DNA of 64,000 nucleotides from an uncultured Bacilli bacterium (GTDB taxonomy: Bacteria; Bacillota_I; Bacilli_A; RFN20; CAG-826), in assembly GCA_944327845.1 (NCBI GenBank), contig CALVHN010000002.1, forward strand, positions 69,326 to 133,325, in the 5' to 3' direction. Positions 11,693 through 56,573 of the stretch are shown piece by piece. The position numbers were made by a program, and so were the translations under genes. The first letter of the stretch is position 1, and each line of letters begins with the position of its first letter. The notes under the pieces are model-generated. The model worked only from the letters and a program-made list of their open reading frames with translations, searched no databases and was not told the origin of the DNA.

Positions 11693-12133
11693 ATGAAGAA
11701 GTATTGCATAAATTGTGGAAAAGCTATTGATAATAAACATAACTCTCATAATTTAAAAGAAGAGCATAGTTTTGACTATTGCTCTTCTTGCAATACTTCT
11801 AATTCTTATGAAGATTTAGATAAGATTGAAGATCATGAATTTAATCAAAAAGTTCATAATAACATCATTAAAGCTAATGATATGAAAAATAATTCATTAT
11901 GCTTTATTGTTGGTGGATTCATTTTGTTAATTATAGGTATATTTTTCTTTGTACTTTCGTTTAAAAGAAATGTTATTGGCATTAGAGTTTTTTCACCTAT
12001 GTGTTTTGAATTTTTTATAGCAATTATTGCTTTAGCTTTATCTGCTGTAGGCTTAATTTATGGATTTATTCGATTTTTGAGTGCTTATAATAAGAAAAAG
12101 TATTTTAAAACTTTGCTTAGAAAAATTAAATAA
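11693..12133 (+). CDS. zinc-ribbon membrane protein
   Basis: A 146-residue protein. Two CxxC pairs near the N terminus (CINCGK at 5-10 and CSSCN near 30-34) form a likely zinc ribbon. Two hydrophobic helices follow near 66-90 and 101-128. It starts 16 bases after the binding-protein gene with a GTGAGG-type site and is closed by a terminator, so it is the last gene of the importer operon. Its role is unknown; a cytoplasmic zinc ribbon on a membrane hairpin could be a small accessory or regulatory factor. Confidence 0.7.
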   Translation: MKKYCINCGKAIDNKHNSHNLKEEHSFDYCSSCNTSNSYEDLDKIEDHEFNQKVHNNIIKANDMKNNSLCFIVGGFILLIIGIFFFVLSFKRNVIGIRVFSPMCFEFFIAIIALALSAVGLIYGFIRFLSAYNKKKYFKTLLRKIK

Positions 12134-47794: not shown

Positions 47795-49340
47795 ATGAAA
47801 AGAAAATATTTTTTGCTTTTAGCTTTACCATTATTATTGGTTACTTCGTGTAATAATAACCAAGATGATAATAAAAAACCAACACCTGAACCAGTTTTAT
47901 CGTTTAGTGAAGTTTATAATAAACTTTCAAAAGAATTAACTTTAAGTGGAACCGTTAAAGAAGTATTAGTTGGAGAAAATAAGGAAGAAACTCCATTAAA
48001 TGGTACTATTAAAGTTAATTTAGGTGAAAATAGTTATCATATTGAACAAACTGGAGATTGCACAGAAATTATTTCTTCTATTTATACTAATGATGAAGAA
48101 AATCGTAATTCTTTACATTATTACATTACTGAGTTAAATGAAGTAGAGTATGAAGTTATTACTGAAATGGATGAAGAACTTCAAGAAGAAGTTCCTGTAC
48201 CTTTTAAAGAATATGAAAATCCATTTAAATATGTAAAAGCAGATGTTTTTAAAGATAATGGCGATAATACATACTCTTTTGATATGAGTAAAACTGAATC
48301 TTTAAACGATCTTTACTATATGAGTGGCAATATTATCTATTTAATGATAGATGAAATGGCTGCTCAATCAATTTGAAACTAATGTTATTGAAGATTTTAC
48401 TTTTACTCGTGAGAAAAATGATTTGACTAAACTTCATATCAAAACAATTAATTTATCCGATTCTTTTGGAACAAGGTATTTTGAATATAATTTTAACATT
48501 GATTATTCTAGTGATGTCGACCATGATTATCCTCTTCCTTCGCCTTTACCACATGAAGATTATCATACGAATTTAGATAAAGCTTTTGATGCATTGAAAA
48601 ATGCAACTTATGTTGCTGAAGGTAGTGTTGACTGGGGTGGAATACTTTATCCATTTACTTATGCTATAAGTGATGATTTAGTTTATGTGTATGATGAAGA
48701 TTATGATGAGTTTGTTGCATTTATAAAATTAGATGATGGAATTCATGAAGTCAGTTCAGTTGATGGAACTTATTACTATAAACCTGATATCGTTGAAGAT
48801 GGTGAAGCTTATTGGCCAACTCAAACAATGGCGACAGAATGGTTTAATTTTGATGAAGATACAGATGAATATTTCTTAGAAGGAGACACGTCTTGCTATA
48901 ATTTCTCTAGTGGAATGATTCCTTATGCTTATTTATTTGATCCAACCGCATTTGCAGGAAGTAAATTAAATATAACTCTTGACGATAATGATATGCTAAA
49001 AACCTTAACTGTAACTGGTGGTATTGCTGAAGTAACAATTAATTTTAATTTTGATAATCCGGTATTACCTATTGATGTAAGTAAAATTACTGAAGAGCCT
49101 ACTTTATTTGAACGTTTTTTAGGAACTTATACTTTTACTGATGATGGTGCAGAAAATGTAGTTGTTGTTACAGAAAATAGTGTTACTTTTAATGGTGAAA
49201 CATGTTTAGATATTGGCGAAAATAGATATGGCGAATTAGAATTTACTTATAAAGATGAAAATTGGTCAATTAATAAAGATAATAGTACAATTTATAATAA
49301 CGATTCTGGTGCAAGCTTTGCTTTTACCTATTCTGCATAG
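47795..49340 (+). pseudogene. surface lipoprotein gene split by a one-base insertion
   Basis: ATG 47795 follows GGAGG and codes a lipoprotein signal (LLLVTSC, Cys 20) and 193 residues to TGA 48374. Coding continues one frame over to 49340. Removing one T from TTT at 48372-48374 restores a 514-residue protein (junction AAQSIETNVIEDF). The second part has several acidic, Tyr-rich segments and YPLPSPLPHEDYHTNLD. I do not recognise a family; it resembles large beta-rich surface lipoproteins. A strong hairpin terminator follows. Both halves have unbroken coding quality, so the change is recent or a sequence error. Confidence 0.65.
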
Positions 49341-49361
49341 TATAAATTAATTGTTGTTTTT

Positions 49362-49437
49362 AAAAAACCTTGCAAAAATCATATAAAATTCAAAAATTAG
49401 TAATTTTTATATAATGATTTATAATGCAAGGTTTTTT
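49362..49437 (+). terminator. long hairpin after the split lipoprotein gene
   Basis: AAAAAACCTTGCA (49362-49374) and TGCAAGGTTTTTT (49425-49437) are perfect 13-bp arms; inner ATCAT/ATGAT pairs extend the stem. The trailing T-run fits a terminator before the phosphate locus. Confidence 0.8.
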
Positions 49438-49456
49438 GTTTACTTAAATTTAACCT

Positions 49457-49493
49457 TTTACATATTCTTTACAAATCTTTACTTAATTATGCT
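49457..49493 (+). promoter_or_regulatory. PHO box promoter of pstS
   Basis: Three direct repeats TTTACA (49457), TTTACA (49468), TTTACT (49478) with 5- and 4-base spacers, then 4 bases and TATGCT (49488-49493). TT(A/C/T)ACA repeats about 11 bases apart are the Gram-positive PhoP site. The identical layout recurs before pstC. Confidence 0.75.
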
Positions 49494-49549
49494 TTTATGG
49501 ATGGTTGATTTTGATAAATAATTTTTATGTCTTAAAGGAGATTTTAGAT

Positions 49550-50500
49550 ATGAAAAAAAGATTTATTGCTGTTTCAATATTAGCATTAGGCGTTTTAACT
49601 TTAGCAAGCTGTGGTAATACTACTTTTGATACTACAAATGCTATTAAATTATATTCCCGTGATGATAAATCTGGAACTAGAGATGGTTTCTTTACAAAAA
49701 TTGGTTATGAGGATGCAAAATCAGATAATTCTTTATTAAAATCAACGGTTTCTATTGTTGCAAATAATGGTGCGATGATTACCAGTGTTGCAAATGATCC
49801 TTATGGAATTGGTTATATTTCTTTATCAACACTTGAAAGTAATGACAAAATTAAAGGATTAAAGTATGAAGGTATTGCTCCTTCTGAAGCAAATGTTTTA
49901 AGTGGAGATTATCAATTAACAAGAAACTTCAATTATATTATTAGAAGTGAATATGCTGATTCAAAAGTTGGTGATATAGTCAAAGCTTTTGTTGCATATA
50001 TGAATACTAGAGAAGGTAAAACAATTATGCAAAATGAAGCTGGAATTTTAACAATTAGTAATACAGATCCTTCTTGGAATGATATTAAAGCTAACTATCC
50101 AATTGTTAATGATGCTACATTAAGTTTACAAGTTAAAGTCGGTGGATCAACTTCTGTTAGTGGAATGAGTGAAGCATTAACTGATGCTTTTACTGGTTTA
50201 CTTGCAAGTGATAATGTAACCTTCAACCATAATCATACTGGAAGTGGTGATGCTTATAAAAATACACAAGGTTCAGGAAAAGATTCTGCTACATCACTTG
50301 ATATTGGTTTCTTAAGTAGAGAAATTGAATTAACTGGTGATGAAAAAGCTGCTGCTAATACATATGGAAAAATGTGTACCGATGCAATTGTTGCTGTAGT
50401 TAATGTTGCTAATCCTTATTCCGATACAACTGCTAAAGATTTAGTTTCTATGTATAGTGTTACTGGAGCAGGAAAAGTCTGGAGCGATTTCGTTAAGTAA
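49550..50500 (+). CDS. pstS: phosphate-binding lipoprotein
   Basis: A 316-residue phosphate-binding protein. ATG 49550 is chosen for its AAAGGAG site (49534-49540) and a clean lipobox (LTLASC, Cys 21). Typical phosphate-loop residues are in SRDDKSGTRDGF near 32-43, and SGSGDAYKNTQGSGKDS near 223-239 is the second loop. It delivers phosphate to PstCAB. It heads the phosphate locus behind a PHO box. Confidence 0.93.
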   Translation: MKKRFIAVSILALGVLTLASCGNTTFDTTNAIKLYSRDDKSGTRDGFFTKIGYEDAKSDNSLLKSTVSIVANNGAMITSVANDPYGIGYISLSTLESNDKIKGLKYEGIAPSEANVLSGDYQLTRNFNYIIRSEYADSKVGDIVKAFVAYMNTREGKTIMQNEAGILTISNTDPSWNDIKANYPIVNDATLSLQVKVGGSTSVSGMSEALTDAFTGLLASDNVTFNHNHTGSGDAYKNTQGSGKDSATSLDIGFLSREIELTGDEKAAANTYGKMCTDAIVAVVNVANPYSDTTAKDLVSMYSVTGAGKVWSDFVK

Positions 50501-50503
50501 TTC

Positions 50504-50540
50504 TTTACAAAATCTTTACATATATTTACTCTCATATGAT
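50504..50540 (+). promoter_or_regulatory. second PHO box promoter, between pstS and pstC
   Basis: TTTACA (50504), TTTACA (50515), TTTACT (50525) and TATGAT (50535-50540), with exactly the spacers seen before pstS (5, 4 and 4 bases). It would give pstCAB-phoU-phoPR their own phosphate-regulated start. Confidence 0.72.
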
Positions 50541-50574
50541 ATTTACAAATAACTAAAGTTTGTAAATTATTTGT

Positions 50575-51618
50575 ATGAAATGTATAGACGAAAGTCAAAT
50601 ATTGAAAAATTCAAAAAGGAAGTCAACTATTGATAAAGTTGTCGGCTTCCTTTTTTTATTTGTTACTTTAATTTGTGCAAGTATAATCATTTTTACAATA
50701 GTATTAATTGCATATCAAGGTATATTACCTTTTATCAAGGAATATCCTGCTTCTGGAAATCAAGTTTCAACCGCTAATTTAGGTATATTTTTAACTGGAT
50801 TATCTTGGTCAAGCTCAGGATATGGGGCGTTCTTTTTAGTTATTAATACACTTTATGTTGTTTTATTAAGTGCAATAATTTCAATTCCAGCATCAATTTT
50901 AACTGCTTTATTTGTTGTTAAAATTGCCCCTAAAGTTGTTGGAGAAATTTTCCAAAGTGGAATTGAAATGCTTGCAAGCGTTCCTAGTGTTATTTTTGGT
51001 TTATTTGGTCAAGGTGTAATCTGTCCAATTATTAGAGATTTTGCTTTTGGAATAGGATTACAAACAAGTGGTGGAACTTCAGTTTTAAGTGGTGCGATAG
51101 TTTTAGCGATGATGTCTATTCCGACAATTACACTTGTTACTATTACATCATTAAGATCTGTTCCAAAAACTTATATTGAAGGTAGCTTAGCGCTTGGAGC
51201 AACAAAAAGTGAAACTAACTTTAAAGTTGTTTTAAAAGGTGCGACTAGTGGAATAATTAGTGGAATAATTTTAGGATTAGGTAGAGCATTAGGTGAAGCA
51301 ACAGCAGTAAGTTTAGTTATTGGTAATGCGGTTAGTGGTCCTACATTTAATATTTTTGATATCGGTTCAACTTTAACTTCAATTATGCTTATGGGAATTG
51401 GTGAATCTACCGGATTAGGATATGATATTAGGTTTAGTTTAGGTATCATGTTAATGGTAATTATTGTTCTTACTAATTTAATTTTAAATTATGTTAAAAA
51501 TAGAGTAACAAATCCTTTTAAAAAGCCTTCAAAAATTTTAAATGCTTGCAAAACCCTTATTATTTATATAAAAACTTATTTTAAAAAGGACAAAGATAAT
51601 GAAGAAAGTAGTAAATAA
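50575..51618 (+). CDS. pstC: phosphate importer permease PstC
   Basis: A 347-residue permease with about six helices, the first near 26-50. The coupling region is YIEGSLALGATKSETNFKVV near 201-220, and PSVIFGLFGQGV near 138-149 is typical of PstC. ATG 50575 has no ribosome site, and the only other in-frame start-like codon nearby is TTG 50602. A terminator-like hairpin lies inside codons 13-28. It overlaps pstA by 20 bases. Confidence 0.92.
   Translation: MKCIDESQILKNSKRKSTIDKVVGFLFLFVTLICASIIIFTIVLIAYQGILPFIKEYPASGNQVSTANLGIFLTGLSWSSSGYGAFFLVINTLYVVLLSAIISIPASILTALFVVKIAPKVVGEIFQSGIEMLASVPSVIFGLFGQGVICPIIRDFAFGIGLQTSGGTSVLSGAIVLAMMSIPTITLVTITSLRSVPKTYIEGSLALGATKSETNFKVVLKGATSGIISGIILGLGRALGEATAVSLVIGNAVSGPTFNIFDIGSTLTSIMLMGIGESTGLGYDIRFSLGIMLMVIIVLTNLILNYVKNRVTNPFKKPSKILNACKTLIIYIKTYFKKDKDNEESSK
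50613..50657 (+). terminator. terminator-like hairpin inside the pstC frame
   Basis: AAAAAGGAAG (50613-50622) pairs with CTTCCTTTTT (50646-50655). An upper stem CAACT/AGTTG and an 8-base loop complete it; the right arm runs into T7. It has all parts of an intrinsic terminator yet lies within the coding region whichever start is used. Confidence 0.6.
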
Positions 51619-52861
51619 TAGCGAAATTAATTCTAGTCAAATAATGTCCAAAAAAAGAACAGTAAAGGACATTTTAAGAAATGTTTCAACTTTAGTTTTT
51701 TCAATATTAACATTAGGAATTTTAATTTGGATTATTATTTATATTTTTGTAACTGGTGCTCCAAATTTAAGCTGGAGTTTTATTACAAGTGATTATAATG
51801 AAACAAGTGTATCTTTAAGAAGTGAAAGTGATTTTACTTTCGATGGTCGTGATTTTACTTTTGAAGATCCAAATGGTTTTAAAAGTGAAAGATGGGGAGT
51901 AAGCTTTATTGATGGAAAGAATAATTTAGGAGAAGATGTTATATTCTTTAATGAAATATGTGAAAATTCATATTTTTATGAATTAATTGATTATTCTACT
52001 AATGAAGTATTTTTAGATTATAGCGATCAATATGTTTATTCTATAAATTTAATGCTTGATGATGGAACATATCAAATTGTTAATGGTAATAGATATTCAG
52101 CAGAAGAACTTGTTTCTTATTTAGATCAAGCTTATTTAATCGATAATTTAAATATTATGACGGTAGGAGGCGGAATTAGAGGAAGTATTTTAACTACTTT
52201 AGCTTTAATTGGTGTGACTTTAATTATCGCTTTACCAATAGGAATAATTGGTGCAATTTATTTAGCATTATTTGCTAAGAAAAATAAAATAACTATGGTT
52301 TTACGTAGTTTAATTGATATGACTAGCGCGATTCCTTCGATTATTTTTGGTTTTATTGGAGTAATTATTTTTATTCCATTTGTGAATTCTATCACTGGAA
52401 GTAGCGGAGGTAGTATTCTTTCTGGTGCTTTTACTTTAGCAATAATGTTAATTCCAACAATTGTTAAAACAACAGAAGAAAGTATTTTAGCTTTACCAAA
52501 AGGTTATATGGATTCAAGTTTAGCATTAGGTGCAAGTAGAACCGAAACTGTTTTTAAAGTAATTTTACCTAATGCAGTCCCTGGAATTATTACTTCAGCT
52601 ATTTTATCAATTGGCCGTATAATTGGAGAAAGTGCAGCTTTAGTATTTGCAATTGGGGCAAGTATTCAAGATAATGTTTCTTTAACTAATTCATCAACTT
52701 CACTTGCTGTCCATATTTGGGTTTTATTATCTCATGAAAATCCAAATTATGATGCAGCTTGTGCAATTTCAATTATTATATTAATAATAGTTTTAATATT
52801 ATCTTTATTAACAAAACTTATTAGTTATTTACATGAAAGAAAACTTAAAAGGAGTAGATAA
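51599..52861 (+). CDS. pstA: phosphate importer permease PstA with ~130-residue outer domain
   Basis: A 420-residue permease; PstA is usually near 290. Helix 1 is at about 33-53. Then about 130 polar residues (55-187, with several Tyr and Asp) precede the usual core, which begins [12 protein letters not shown] near 191. The coupling motif is [20 protein letters not shown] near 302-321, and [13 protein letters not shown] near 246-258 is typical. The inserted loop lies outside the membrane, where PstS docks. Translation is coupled to pstC by a 20-base overlap. Confidence 0.9.
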
Positions 52862-52863
52862 AT

Positions 52864-53619
52864 ATGAATGAAGAAGTAATTTTTAGTGTTAAAAATTTAT
52901 CTTTATATTATGGTGAGAAAAAAGCTTTAAATGATATCTCTATTGATATTTATAAAAATAAAGTCACAGCTTTTATTGGACCTTCTGGATGTGGAAAATC
53001 TACTTTTTTAAGATGTTTTAATCGTATGAATGATTTAATTGAAAATTGCCGAGTAGAAGGTGAAATATTGTATAAAAATGAAAATATTTTAAAAGTTAAT
53101 CCAATATATTTAAGAACAAAAGTTGGAATGGTCTTTCAGCAACCTAATCCATTCCCAATGTCAATTTTTAATAATGTTACTTATGGTTTAAAATGCCAAG
53201 GAGTAAGAAAAAAAGACGAATTAAAAGAAATTTGTATTGAATCTCTTACTAAAAGTGCTTTATACGAAGAAGTGAAAGATCGTTTAAAAGATAATGCTTT
53301 AGCTTTAAGTGGAGGGCAACAACAGAGATTATGCATTGCTCGTTGTATCGCTTTATCTCCAGATGTAATCTTAATGGATGAGCCAACTTCCGCTTTAGAT
53401 CCAATTGCAACAAGTAAAATTGAAGAATTAATACGTGAATTAAAAAAGGATTATACTATTGTTATAGTTACTCACAATATGCAACAAGCAACAAGAATTA
53501 GCGATTATACTGCATTCTTTATGCTCGGAGATTTAGTAGAATATAATACAACCGATGAATTCTTCTCTCATCCAAAAGATAAAAGAAGTGATGATTATAT
53601 TAGTGGTAAGTTTAGTTAA
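52864..53619 (+). CDS. pstB: phosphate importer ATPase PstB
   Basis: A 251-residue ATPase of normal length. Walker A is [10 protein letters not shown] near 39-48, then [10 protein letters not shown], a PstB hallmark; [15 protein letters not shown] near 98-112, signature [14 protein letters not shown], Walker [12 protein letters not shown], and [10 protein letters not shown]. Ribosome site AAAAGGAG, 2 bases after pstA. Confidence 0.96.
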
Positions 53620-53633
53620 TAAGGAGTTTAATT

Positions 53634-54269
53634 ATGATTTATAAAGAGGAGTTAATTAATGATTTAAAAGTTAAAAGTGTTCAAATGATAGAATTAACTT
53701 TTAAAGCAGTCAAAAATTCGATTAAAAGTTTAAAAAAAGTCGATATTGAAAAAGTAAATGATGATGAAATTGATAAACTTTATGTTGATGTTGAAGAGCA
53801 AGCTTTAAAAATTCTTTTAAAAGAAAGAACTTACTCAAAAGATTTAAGAATTGTAACTGGTATTTTAAAGTTAGTTGATGACATTGAAAGAATAGGAGAT
53901 CATGCTGAAGATTTAGCTTGGTGTAGTTCTAAACTTACTTTAGTTGAAAAACATGTTGAAATTAATTCTTTAAATGAATTATGTGATGAAGTTTTATCAA
54001 AAATTGATTTAACTTTAGAAAGTTATTTAAATGAAGATAGTGAGTTAGCTAATAAAAACATTGAGCTTGATGATAATGTTGATGATTTATATTTAAAAGT
54101 TTTAGATGAGCTAGAAATTATTAAAGATAAAGAATCTAATTATAATTTAATTATTTATTCAACATTAATTGCAAAATATTTAGAAAGAATCGCTGATCAT
54201 TTAGTAAATATTAATGAATGGATTATTTATATTAAAAATGGTTATTATAAAGGTCGTACTATTATATAA
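53634..54269 (+). CDS. phoU: phosphate uptake regulator PhoU
   Basis: A 211-residue all-helical protein with the PhoU two-fold repeat: DDIERIGDHAEDLAW near 82-96 and AKYLERIADHLVNINEW near 181-197, each with the metal-binding E-R-x-x-D-H pattern. It links PstB to PhoR and damps phosphate uptake. Ribosome site AAGGAG, between pstB and phoP. Confidence 0.95.
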   Translation: MIYKEELINDLKVKSVQMIELTFKAVKNSIKSLKKVDIEKVNDDEIDKLYVDVEEQALKILLKERTYSKDLRIVTGILKLVDDIERIGDHAEDLAWCSSKLTLVEKHVEINSLNELCDEVLSKIDLTLESYLNEDSELANKNIELDDNVDDLYLKVLDELEIIKDKESNYNLIIYSTLIAKYLERIADHLVNINEWIIYIKNGYYKGRTII

Positions 54270-54277
54270 TTAAAAAT

Positions 54278-54940
54278 ATGAAAAAATTAATCTATTCAAT
54301 TGAGGATGATAAAGATATTGCTTATATCATAAATAAAGCATTAACTTCAAGCGGATATGAAGTTAAGTCTTTTAGTGATGGTGAATCTTTTTTTGATGAA
54401 TTTAATAAAAAAGAACCAGACTTAATTTTATTAGATATGATGCTTCCTAAAATTCAAGGGAGCGAAATTTTAAAATATATTCGTCAAAATAAAAAATACG
54501 ATGATATCGATATAATTATTATTAGTGCTAATAAATTATTAAGTGATAAAATTGATGGACTAAATTTAGGTGCAGATGATTATATTGAAAAACCTTTTGA
54601 AATTTTAGAATTAATTAGTCGAGTAAATGCACGTTTTAGAAAAAGTAAAAATCATATTTATCAAATCGGAAATTTAAAGGTTGATGAAGAAAAACGTATA
54701 GTTTTGCTCGGTGAAGAGAACTTAAAGTTTACTAATAGTGAATTTGATATTCTACTTGCTTTAATTAAAGCTGAAGGGAAGGTTGTAAGTCGAGAATCTT
54801 TGATGGGCATATTATGGGGAAATGAATCAAATTATGAATCTCGAATCATTGATATGCATATTACATCAATTAGAAAAAAAGTTAAAAATAAAGATTTAAT
54901 TTTAACAATTCATGGACATGGTTATCGTATAAATGAATAA
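54278..54940 (+). CDS. phoP: phosphate response regulator, PhoP/PhoB type
   Basis: A 220-residue OmpR-family regulator. The receiver domain has acidic residues EDD at 9-11, the phosphorylated Asp D53 (LILLDMMLP), and Lys in EKPFE near 105. The C-terminal winged helix contains FTNSEFDILLALI and SRIIDMHITSIRKKV. It overlaps phoR by 8 bases. By position it is the regulator of the two PHO boxes in this window. Confidence 0.93.
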   Translation: MKKLIYSIEDDKDIAYIINKALTSSGYEVKSFSDGESFFDEFNKKEPDLILLDMMLPKIQGSEILKYIRQNKKYDDIDIIIISANKLLSDKIDGLNLGADDYIEKPFEILELISRVNARFRKSKNHIYQIGNLKVDEEKRIVLLGEENLKFTNSEFDILLALIKAEGKVVSRESLMGILWGNESNYESRIIDMHITSIRKKVKNKDLILTIHGHGYRINE

Positions 54941-56573
54941 AAAGAAGTTAGTTTTGCAAGGTTTTTTATTCTTTTTAGCTAGTTTAACGATTTTTCTTTG
55001 TTCAATTTTTGTTTTAAATAATATTACTTTGAATGAAGCAAATAATAATTTAAATAATTATTATCAAATTACTTCTAAACTTTATAATGATAATGAAAAT
55101 TATAATGAAATTGTAAATATCTTTAATGATAATAAAGATATCCATGTAACAATTTTAAATAATGATTTAAAAGTTGTTTATGATAATTTTTTAAATACTA
55201 CGATAAGTGAAAAAGAATCTTTAAACATTAAATCTCACATTAATAAAGATACATATTGTGAGGTTAATTTAAAGAATAATGAAGAATATTTATATTTAGT
55301 TAAAAATAAAAATATTAATAATTCAATAATTCGAGTTGGAATTAAAAAATCATATGTTTTCCAATATAATTTATTGATAAGTATCTTAGGTCTAGTTATT
55401 TTAGTTGCTTTAAATATTGGATTTATTTTATATATTTACTTTAAAGCAAATAAGAATATTAAAATAATTAATAATGAAATTAATAGCTTAAATAAATTTT
55501 TAGGAAATAATGAAAATATTAATAACTTAAGTATTGTTGATACATTAAAAGAAACTAATTTGCTAATTGAAGAAAAAATTAAAGAAGTTAATAGTGAGAA
55601 GGAAAAATATGAATATATTTTAAATAATATTTCAGAAGGTTTTATTGCTATTAATTCAAATTTTGAAATAAAAGTTATTAATAATTCAGCTTTAAAAATG
55701 TTTAAAAAAGAAGTAAAAAGCGTGCTAAATAAACATATTTCTTATTTATTTGATACATCTTTGCTTTTAAAAAAAATAAGTGGATTAAAAGATAAAATAG
55801 TTTATGAAGAAGAGATTAATGATTCATATTATCAATTTGAAATTAATAAAATTAATTTTAATGAAAATAATATTTACTCTATTTTAATTATCGATTTAAG
55901 TGAAGAAAAAAATTCTAATCAAATGAAAAAACAATTCTTTTTAAATGCTTCACATGAATTAAAATCTCCTCTTACTTCAATTATTGGATATTCTGAATTG
56001 ATCAGTGAAGGATTAGTAAGAGATGAAGAAATTATCCAAATAAGTAAAAAGACTTTAAAAGAAGCTCGTAGAATGAAAAATATTGTTTTAGATATGCTTG
56101 AATTATCTAAACTTGAATCTAATGAATCTAAGCTTCAAGAAAATATTAATTTAAAGGAAATAATTGATTCTTCAATAGAATTATTGGAATATCAAATAAA
56201 TAAAAAAGAGATAAATATTATTAAAGATGTTAGTGATTATAATATTTATGCAAATAAAGAAGATATAAATAAATTAGTTTCAAATATTTTATCAAATGCT
56301 GTTAATTATAATGTTCAAAAAGGAAATATTTGGGTTACTTTAAAGAATAATAAATTAACTATTAAAGATAGTGGTATTGGTATTTCAAAAGAAGATTTAC
56401 CACGTATTTTTGAAAGATTTTATCGAGTTGATCAAGGAAGAAGTAAAGAAAATAGTGGAACAGGATTAGGATTAGCTATTGTTAAACATATTTGTTTAAA
56501 TTATGGCTATCAAATATCTGTTGATTCTAAATTAAATAGTGGAACTACGTTTAAAATAATTTTTAAAAAATGA
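54933..56573 (+). CDS. phoR: phosphate sensor histidine kinase, PhoR type
   Basis: A 546-residue membrane kinase. Helices at 9-31 and 146-170 frame an outer domain of about 115 residues; a PAS-like domain lies near 225-322. The phospho-accepting His is H341 in ASHELKSPLTSIIGYSEL; the ATP lid has SNILSNAVNYN, KDSGIGIS, IFERFYRVD and GTGLGLAIVK. It ends in TGA, one of the very few in the window; downstream the frame would run only 8 more codons. Confidence 0.93.
   Translation: MNKKKLVLQGFLFFLASLTIFLCSIFVLNNITLNEANNNLNNYYQITSKLYNDNENYNEIVNIFNDNKDIHVTILNNDLKVVYDNFLNTTISEKESLNIKSHINKDTYCEVNLKNNEEYLYLVKNKNINNSIIRVGIKKSYVFQYNLLISILGLVILVALNIGFILYIYFKANKNIKIINNEINSLNKFLGNNENINNLSIVDTLKETNLLIEEKIKEVNSEKEKYEYILNNISEGFIAINSNFEIKVINNSALKMFKKEVKSVLNKHISYLFDTSLLLKKISGLKDKIVYEEEINDSYYQFEINKINFNENNIYSILIIDLSEEKNSNQMKKQFFLNASHELKSPLTSIIGYSELISEGLVRDEEIIQISKKTLKEARRMKNIVLDMLELSKLESNESKLQENINLKEIIDSSIELLEYQINKKEINIIKDVSDYNIYANKEDINKLVSNILSNAVNYNVQKGNIWVTLKNNKLTIKDSGIGISKEDLPRIFERFYRVDQGRSKENSGTGLGLAIVKHICLNYGYQISVDSKLNSGTTFKIIFKK

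Follow-up and report, generated by a model that had tools for sequence, protein, structure and literature searches.

The first codons of pstC in the window (the whole 64-kb stretch of DNA analysed here) contain a hairpin followed directly by a U-rich tract, and comparison with relatives, a group of gut-type Bacilli known from uncultured genomes, has shown that selection acts on the synonymous sites of this hairpin. We consider it probable, at about 0.72, that the element serves as a partly efficient Rho-independent terminator at the pstS/pstC boundary, which would leave pstS transcripts in excess over pstCAB. Termination itself, its efficiency and the PstS:PstCAB ratio are what we infer from these comparisons. 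The hairpin is real and selected, and a probable operon-stoichiometry terminator embedded in the downstream coding sequence is new here, the intergenic form being known for ABC importers of Clostridia.

The pst cluster and the hairpin within pstC

The window carries a complete pst cluster with every gene on the plus strand, comprising pstS, pstC, pstA, pstB, phoU and a PhoP/PhoR-type pair (Table 1). The reading frame 50575-51618 is pstC by profile match (TIGR02138, 203.5 bits, above the cut-off). The hairpin inside it is real and lies where the earlier note had placed it, at 50613-50657 within codons 13-28. That note had described a stem of about 10 bp with an upper stem and T7; in the RNA fold of 50613-50657 the stem has 12 pairs (AAAAAGGAAGUC / GGCUUCCUUUUU), including the A5-U5 at its base, and the upper stem above it is short (2+3 pairs). 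The distance of 113 nt from the pstS stop, pstS ending at 50500, is likewise correct. Judged by sequence, the element has both parts of an intrinsic terminator, a stable hairpin and a U-rich tract directly after it. Two residues encoded within the hairpin, K16 and D20, are invariant among 13 relatives in the PstC alignment, and the region is therefore truly coding sequence. A pstC start downstream of the hairpin is ruled out by these residues together with the TIGR02138 match, which begins at amino acid 24, profile position 5.

Table 1. Features of the pst cluster and of the pstS-pstC boundary (window coordinates)
Feature	Position	Strand	Remarks
Pho-box triplet TTTACA-N5-TTTACA-N4-TTTACT, upstream of pstS	49457..49483	+	exact match
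pstS, phosphate-binding lipoprotein	49550..50500	+	circular permutation of the TIGR02136 order
Pho-box triplet in the pstS-pstC gap	50504..50530	+	exact match; same triplet in L003 and L004, degenerate in L005
-10-like TATGAT of the putative internal Pho promoter, start expected near 50547	50535..50540	+	from sequence only, on the model of the copy in front of pstS
pstC, phosphate permease subunit	50575..51618	+	without Shine-Dalgarno at the ATG
Candidate terminator hairpin, 5' arm, codons for S-K-R-K-S	50613..50624	+	fold, synonymous-shuffle test, covariation
Candidate terminator hairpin, 3' arm, codons for G-F-L-F	50644..50655	+	fold, synonymous-shuffle test, covariation
T7 tract, partly paired with A5 at the stem base	50651..50657	+	sequence, fold
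pstA	51599..52861	+	overlaps pstC end; strong Shine-Dalgarno; 5' coding sequence without hairpin signal
pstB and phoU	52864..54269	+	downstream genes, unit shared with pstS-pstC-pstA
PhoP/PhoR-type two-component genes	54278..56573	+	close the pst cluster

The claim that a PHO promoter lies just upstream of the hairpin is borne out by the Pho-box triplet at 50504. The triplet pattern occurs exactly twice in the 64 kb, against 0.06 copies expected; a strict pattern with N5/N5 spacing has no match, the actual spacing being N5/N4. An internal Pho promoter 65 nt upstream of the terminator would be odd if the terminator's sole role were to balance pstS against pstCAB. Between these Pho boxes and the pstC ATG lies an inverted repeat (TTTACAAA...TTTGTAAA, 50541-50566), which appears as TTTACA...TGTAAA in L003 and L004 and is a possible regulator site. 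No Rfam or curated riboswitch family matched above its gathering score in 49300-51000.

Two features of the neighbourhood can be recorded in their own right. PstS is permuted with respect to the usual PstS profile, amino acids 30-165 matching profile positions 162-291 and the C-terminal half matching 39-154; this order is already known, the solved protein 4h1x (called PstS 2) having the same one. Upstream of pstS, at 47795-49340, are two lipoprotein-like reading frames for which a Pfam search gave no match.

Selection on the hairpin and its shifts between gap and coding sequence

Within the window, the pstC hairpin is the strongest sense-strand terminator-like hairpin inside any coding sequence. 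The 91-nt fold of its region has a z of -2.45 (6 of 200 shuffles), and against synonymous-codon shuffles of the same protein the hairpin gives p = 0.005-0.016; a consensus terminator scanner did not list it at 50613-50657. As a post-hoc hit, the single p-value of the window is weak alone, and it is the comparative evidence that carries the case. For each relative we took the best-scoring hairpin that leads into a T-rich stretch, the scores coming from a simplified nearest-neighbour model; the null kept the protein and drew its synonymous codons anew from the gene in question. Seventeen of the 20 congeneric loci with a readable pstC 5' end beat this null (p 0.001-0.033), as do loci from other genera or families (L024, L025, L026, L052, L053 and L055) and, outside the main locus set, L063 and L070. 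Control windows further inside pstC reached p <= 0.05 in 10 of 249 cases and p <= 0.01 in one of 249, and a single one of 38 pstA 5' ends was significant. Since these controls are near chance, the test can be taken as calibrated, and the signal belongs specifically to the pstC 5' end. A chance product of codon bias is ruled out by the synonymous shuffles and the control windows.

The background for hairpins within coding sequences comprised the 64-kb window and eleven permease genes, among which a significant hairpin in the 5' coding sequence occurs only in pstC and in one OppB-type gene. The latter, from the same genome (L149, 1000-1500; p = 0.002), also has a gap hairpin after its upstream gene and is possibly a second case of an embedded hairpin. 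A similar-looking candidate in the 5' coding sequence of phoP (54325-54383) was not significant (p = 0.08). Elsewhere in the window, a very strong hairpin, flanked by T-rich sequence on both strands, lies at 11751-11794, inside a small reading frame (11693-12133) that has no Pfam match; its p against synonymous shuffles is 0.001.

The earlier note had proposed looking in relatives for compensatory changes that keep both stem and protein, and such changes are found, some of them synonymous. In the clade of the window (the window, L003, L004 and L005, with protein identities to the window of 61-72%), 7 of 16 pairs have changed on both sides and are still paired, compared with 3.9 +- 1.3 in shuffles (8 of 500 reaching this number) and 0-2 in slid registers. 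At pair 18-48 (alignment columns), two genomes have G-C and the other two A-U; the difference comes from AGG/AGA (Arg) on one side and TTC/TTT (Phe) on the other, such that AGG AAG/TTC CTT and AGA AAG/TTT CTT are synonymous on both sides. A second clade (L017, L018, L020 and L022) has five doubly changed pairs, and a third (L008-L016) has almost no covariation, since it hardly varies. The pairing register differs among the clades, which indicates that the hairpin has been rebuilt, not simply inherited. Loss of the stem with the protein kept, which by the earlier note would have refuted the idea, is not the rule: most relatives with the protein still form the stem, or else their terminator lies in the gap.

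Among 58 pstS-pstC loci, the hairpin is inside pstC only in 25, in the gap only in 20, in both places in three and in neither in ten (L054, L056 and L057 are examples), and the element is therefore not obligatory. With gap-hairpin calls that admitted 3 T of 8, the two positions are nearly mutually exclusive (Fisher p = 1.3e-5, relatedness not corrected for). Relatives with 50-140 nt between pstS and pstC have the hairpin in the gap, and in loci of the gap type the gap is at least 50 nt in all cases but one, whereas loci of the coding type mostly have gaps below 30 nt or overlapping genes. L052, with a gap of 1 nt, has a coding hairpin, in contrast to the other members of its genus, which have gaps of 57-90 nt and gap hairpins. 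The clade of the window is special in that its gap of 74 nt is filled with Pho boxes, and yet its hairpin is in the coding sequence. On the well-supported branches of a PstC tree from which the hairpin columns were left out, the coding state changed at least five times and the gap state at least six times; independent pairs of relatives number only four, mostly in the expected direction, with p of at least 0.125 (phylogenetic sign test). The hairpin has changed place several times, in keeping with a single junction terminator that moves when the gap disappears.

In one genus (L029-L031, L041 and L042) the U-tract of the gap terminator nearly reaches the pstC ATG, an arrangement that looks intermediate between gap and coding positions. 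From their matching results, L023, L024, L026 and L051 appear to be the records L061, L062, L071 and L069, respectively, which are uncultured Bacilli labelled as Erysipelotrichaceae, Bacilli or Bacillales bacterium.

Predicted termination and the alternatives to it

In the mechanism that we propose, RNA polymerase coming from the pstS promoter, and in the clade of the window also from the internal Pho promoter, would transcribe the hairpin and the T-tract before a ribosome opens them. A fraction would stop at the T-tract and yield a pstS transcript with the hairpin as its 3' end, and the remaining polymerases would read through into pstCAB-phoU, such that PstS output would exceed that of the membrane complex. 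Across the 25 loci of the coding type, the base of the hairpin lies 25-115 nt past the pstS stop; this roughly equals or exceeds the ~27 nt that, in E. coli, must separate a terminator from a stop codon for it to escape the terminating ribosome (PMC4824070). Loci that have lost the gap, and the clade of the window with its gap taken up by Pho boxes, encode an equivalent hairpin within the opening ~40 codons of pstC; there, A/G-rich Lys/Arg codons and then the U-rich Phe/Leu codons of the first transmembrane helix can supply stem and U-tract at little change to the protein.

It is unlikely that the hairpin is instead an RNA processing or stability element, which would not terminate transcription but shield the 3' end that an endonuclease leaves on pstS mRNA. 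A hairpin that separates a binding-protein gene from its permease gene can make the upstream RNA more stable, and this reading would suit the gap hairpins of L028, L035 and L059, which have poor T-tracts, and that of L006/L007, after which the sense strand continues with A in place of T and which may not terminate. However, in most members the T-tract comes directly after the stem, and no Rho was found in the genome of the window, so intrinsic signals should carry termination there.

The earlier note also suggested a translation-controlled attenuator, in which ribosomes initiating pstC would open the hairpin and pstC translation would act as the antiterminator. The hairpin does keep a roughly constant place in the reading frame, starting 32-81 nt after the pstC ATG (median 47 nt in the 25 loci of the coding type), and a ribosome could in principle unfold it. 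This position, however, falls in the first ~100 nt of the reading frame, where in E. coli terminators work and ribosomes were measured as not protecting them; translation cost a terminator placed 30 nt downstream of an active start codon only ~10% of its efficiency (PMC4824070). The brfA terminator of B. subtilis, which lies within a reading frame, likewise terminates although it is translated (PMC6881298), and the phylum Bacillota is classed among runaway-transcription species, whose polymerases outrun the ribosomes (PMC13323073). Moreover, pstC has no strong Shine-Dalgarno in 22 of 23 loci of the coding type; in these genomes pstC is essentially without one and pstA has one (paired p = 1.2e-4). 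Between coding and gap types the medians do not differ significantly (p = 0.18), strong sites are rarer in the coding type (p = 0.013), and the comparison, which is confounded with family, is no more than suggestive of a weaker pstC start where the hairpin is embedded. There is no conserved leader peptide either, a 17-codon reading frame that ends in the loop (50580-50633) being absent from L003, and in the inferred leader upstream we saw no other sequence with which the 5' arm might pair. The equivalent gap hairpins of sister genomes could not be controlled by pstC translation in such a way. Given the early position, the precedents, the weak pstC start and the missing pairing partner, an antiterminator role of pstC translation is unlikely. 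This part of the earlier interpretation is not supported; the terminator-like hairpin, the reading of an excess of PstS and the Pho promoter are.

Finally, a mere by-product of coding, with A/G-rich Lys/Arg and then U-rich Phe/Leu codons folding by chance in an AT-rich genome, is very improbable and largely refuted. In its favour, synonymous shuffles of the protein also yield hairpins, if weaker ones (mean about -6.5 kcal/mol in the window). Against it, observed energies in most genomes are far beyond the synonymous null, gap-type genomes mostly have no hairpin excess despite a similar protein, and two clades have covariation.

Related systems and the predicted stop-less RNA

In the pst operons of B. 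subtilis and E. coli, pstS excess arises through RNA events at the pstS-pstC boundary, and to our knowledge the boundary hairpins there are intergenic. The reading of an excess of binding protein agrees with a published, tested mechanism of ABC importers, as stem-loops between binding-protein and permease genes were tested as giving such excess in Ruminiclostridium (PMC9045158). The likeness consists in a 5' binding-protein gene and a stem-loop with a U-rich tail at the permease boundary. The Ruminiclostridium terminators, however, lie between genes, and the search for them covered gaps over 50 bp only; a pair separated by 24 bp showed no drop. The signal described here is inside the permease reading frame, in most cases at a short gap. 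In the window and 24 other loci, the element sits at the boundary of binding-protein and permease genes of one operon, in a location that is not intergenic; because the hairpin is inside pstC, it is a variant and not a plain member of that type.

The B. subtilis gene brfA, like arfA, also has an intrinsic terminator in a translated reading frame, its stop-less mRNA being handled by tmRNA (PMC6881298). There, the terminator is near the 3' end and regulates the gene's own product through trans-translation, whereas the pstC hairpin occupies the 5' end of the second gene, with the upstream gene supplying the useful product. Nearly the same layout is found in the synthetic W48 construct, in which the tR2 terminator stands 30 nt after the start codon between two genes. 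Translation cut its efficiency by only that ~10%. Half of the upstream expression was lost, for which its authors hold trans-translation and the decay of stop-less RNA responsible (PMC4824070). W48 differs in that it was engineered in E. coli, is not natural and lacks codon conservation.

As with brfA and arfA, an RNA terminated at the T-tract would carry a reading frame without a stop, since no in-frame stop precedes such a 3' end in 25 of 25 loci of the coding type. The short RNA of the window would contain the pstC start and about 28 codons, and ribosomes starting there would need rescue by tmRNA, which is present in the window's own genome. The missing Shine-Dalgarno at pstC would limit the cost of the stop-less RNA. 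It would be a long shot that pstS output is sensitive to ribosome rescue or pstC initiation through the embedded terminator, with a ribosome stalling at the 3' end, tmRNA-linked decay destroying pstS mRNA, and feedback thereby running from pstC translation or rescue capacity to the PstS level. If this is true, the feedback would be absent in relatives with a gap terminator.

In this family of loci, a probable regulatory stop signal shifts repeatedly between gap and coding sequence, its function seemingly kept, and codons are chosen to serve RNA and protein at once. Searches limited to gaps would miss operon stoichiometry terminators of this kind in compact genomes. The embedded position also predicts natural operons with stop-less mRNA as a routine output, which bears on the wide retention of tmRNA in small genomes.
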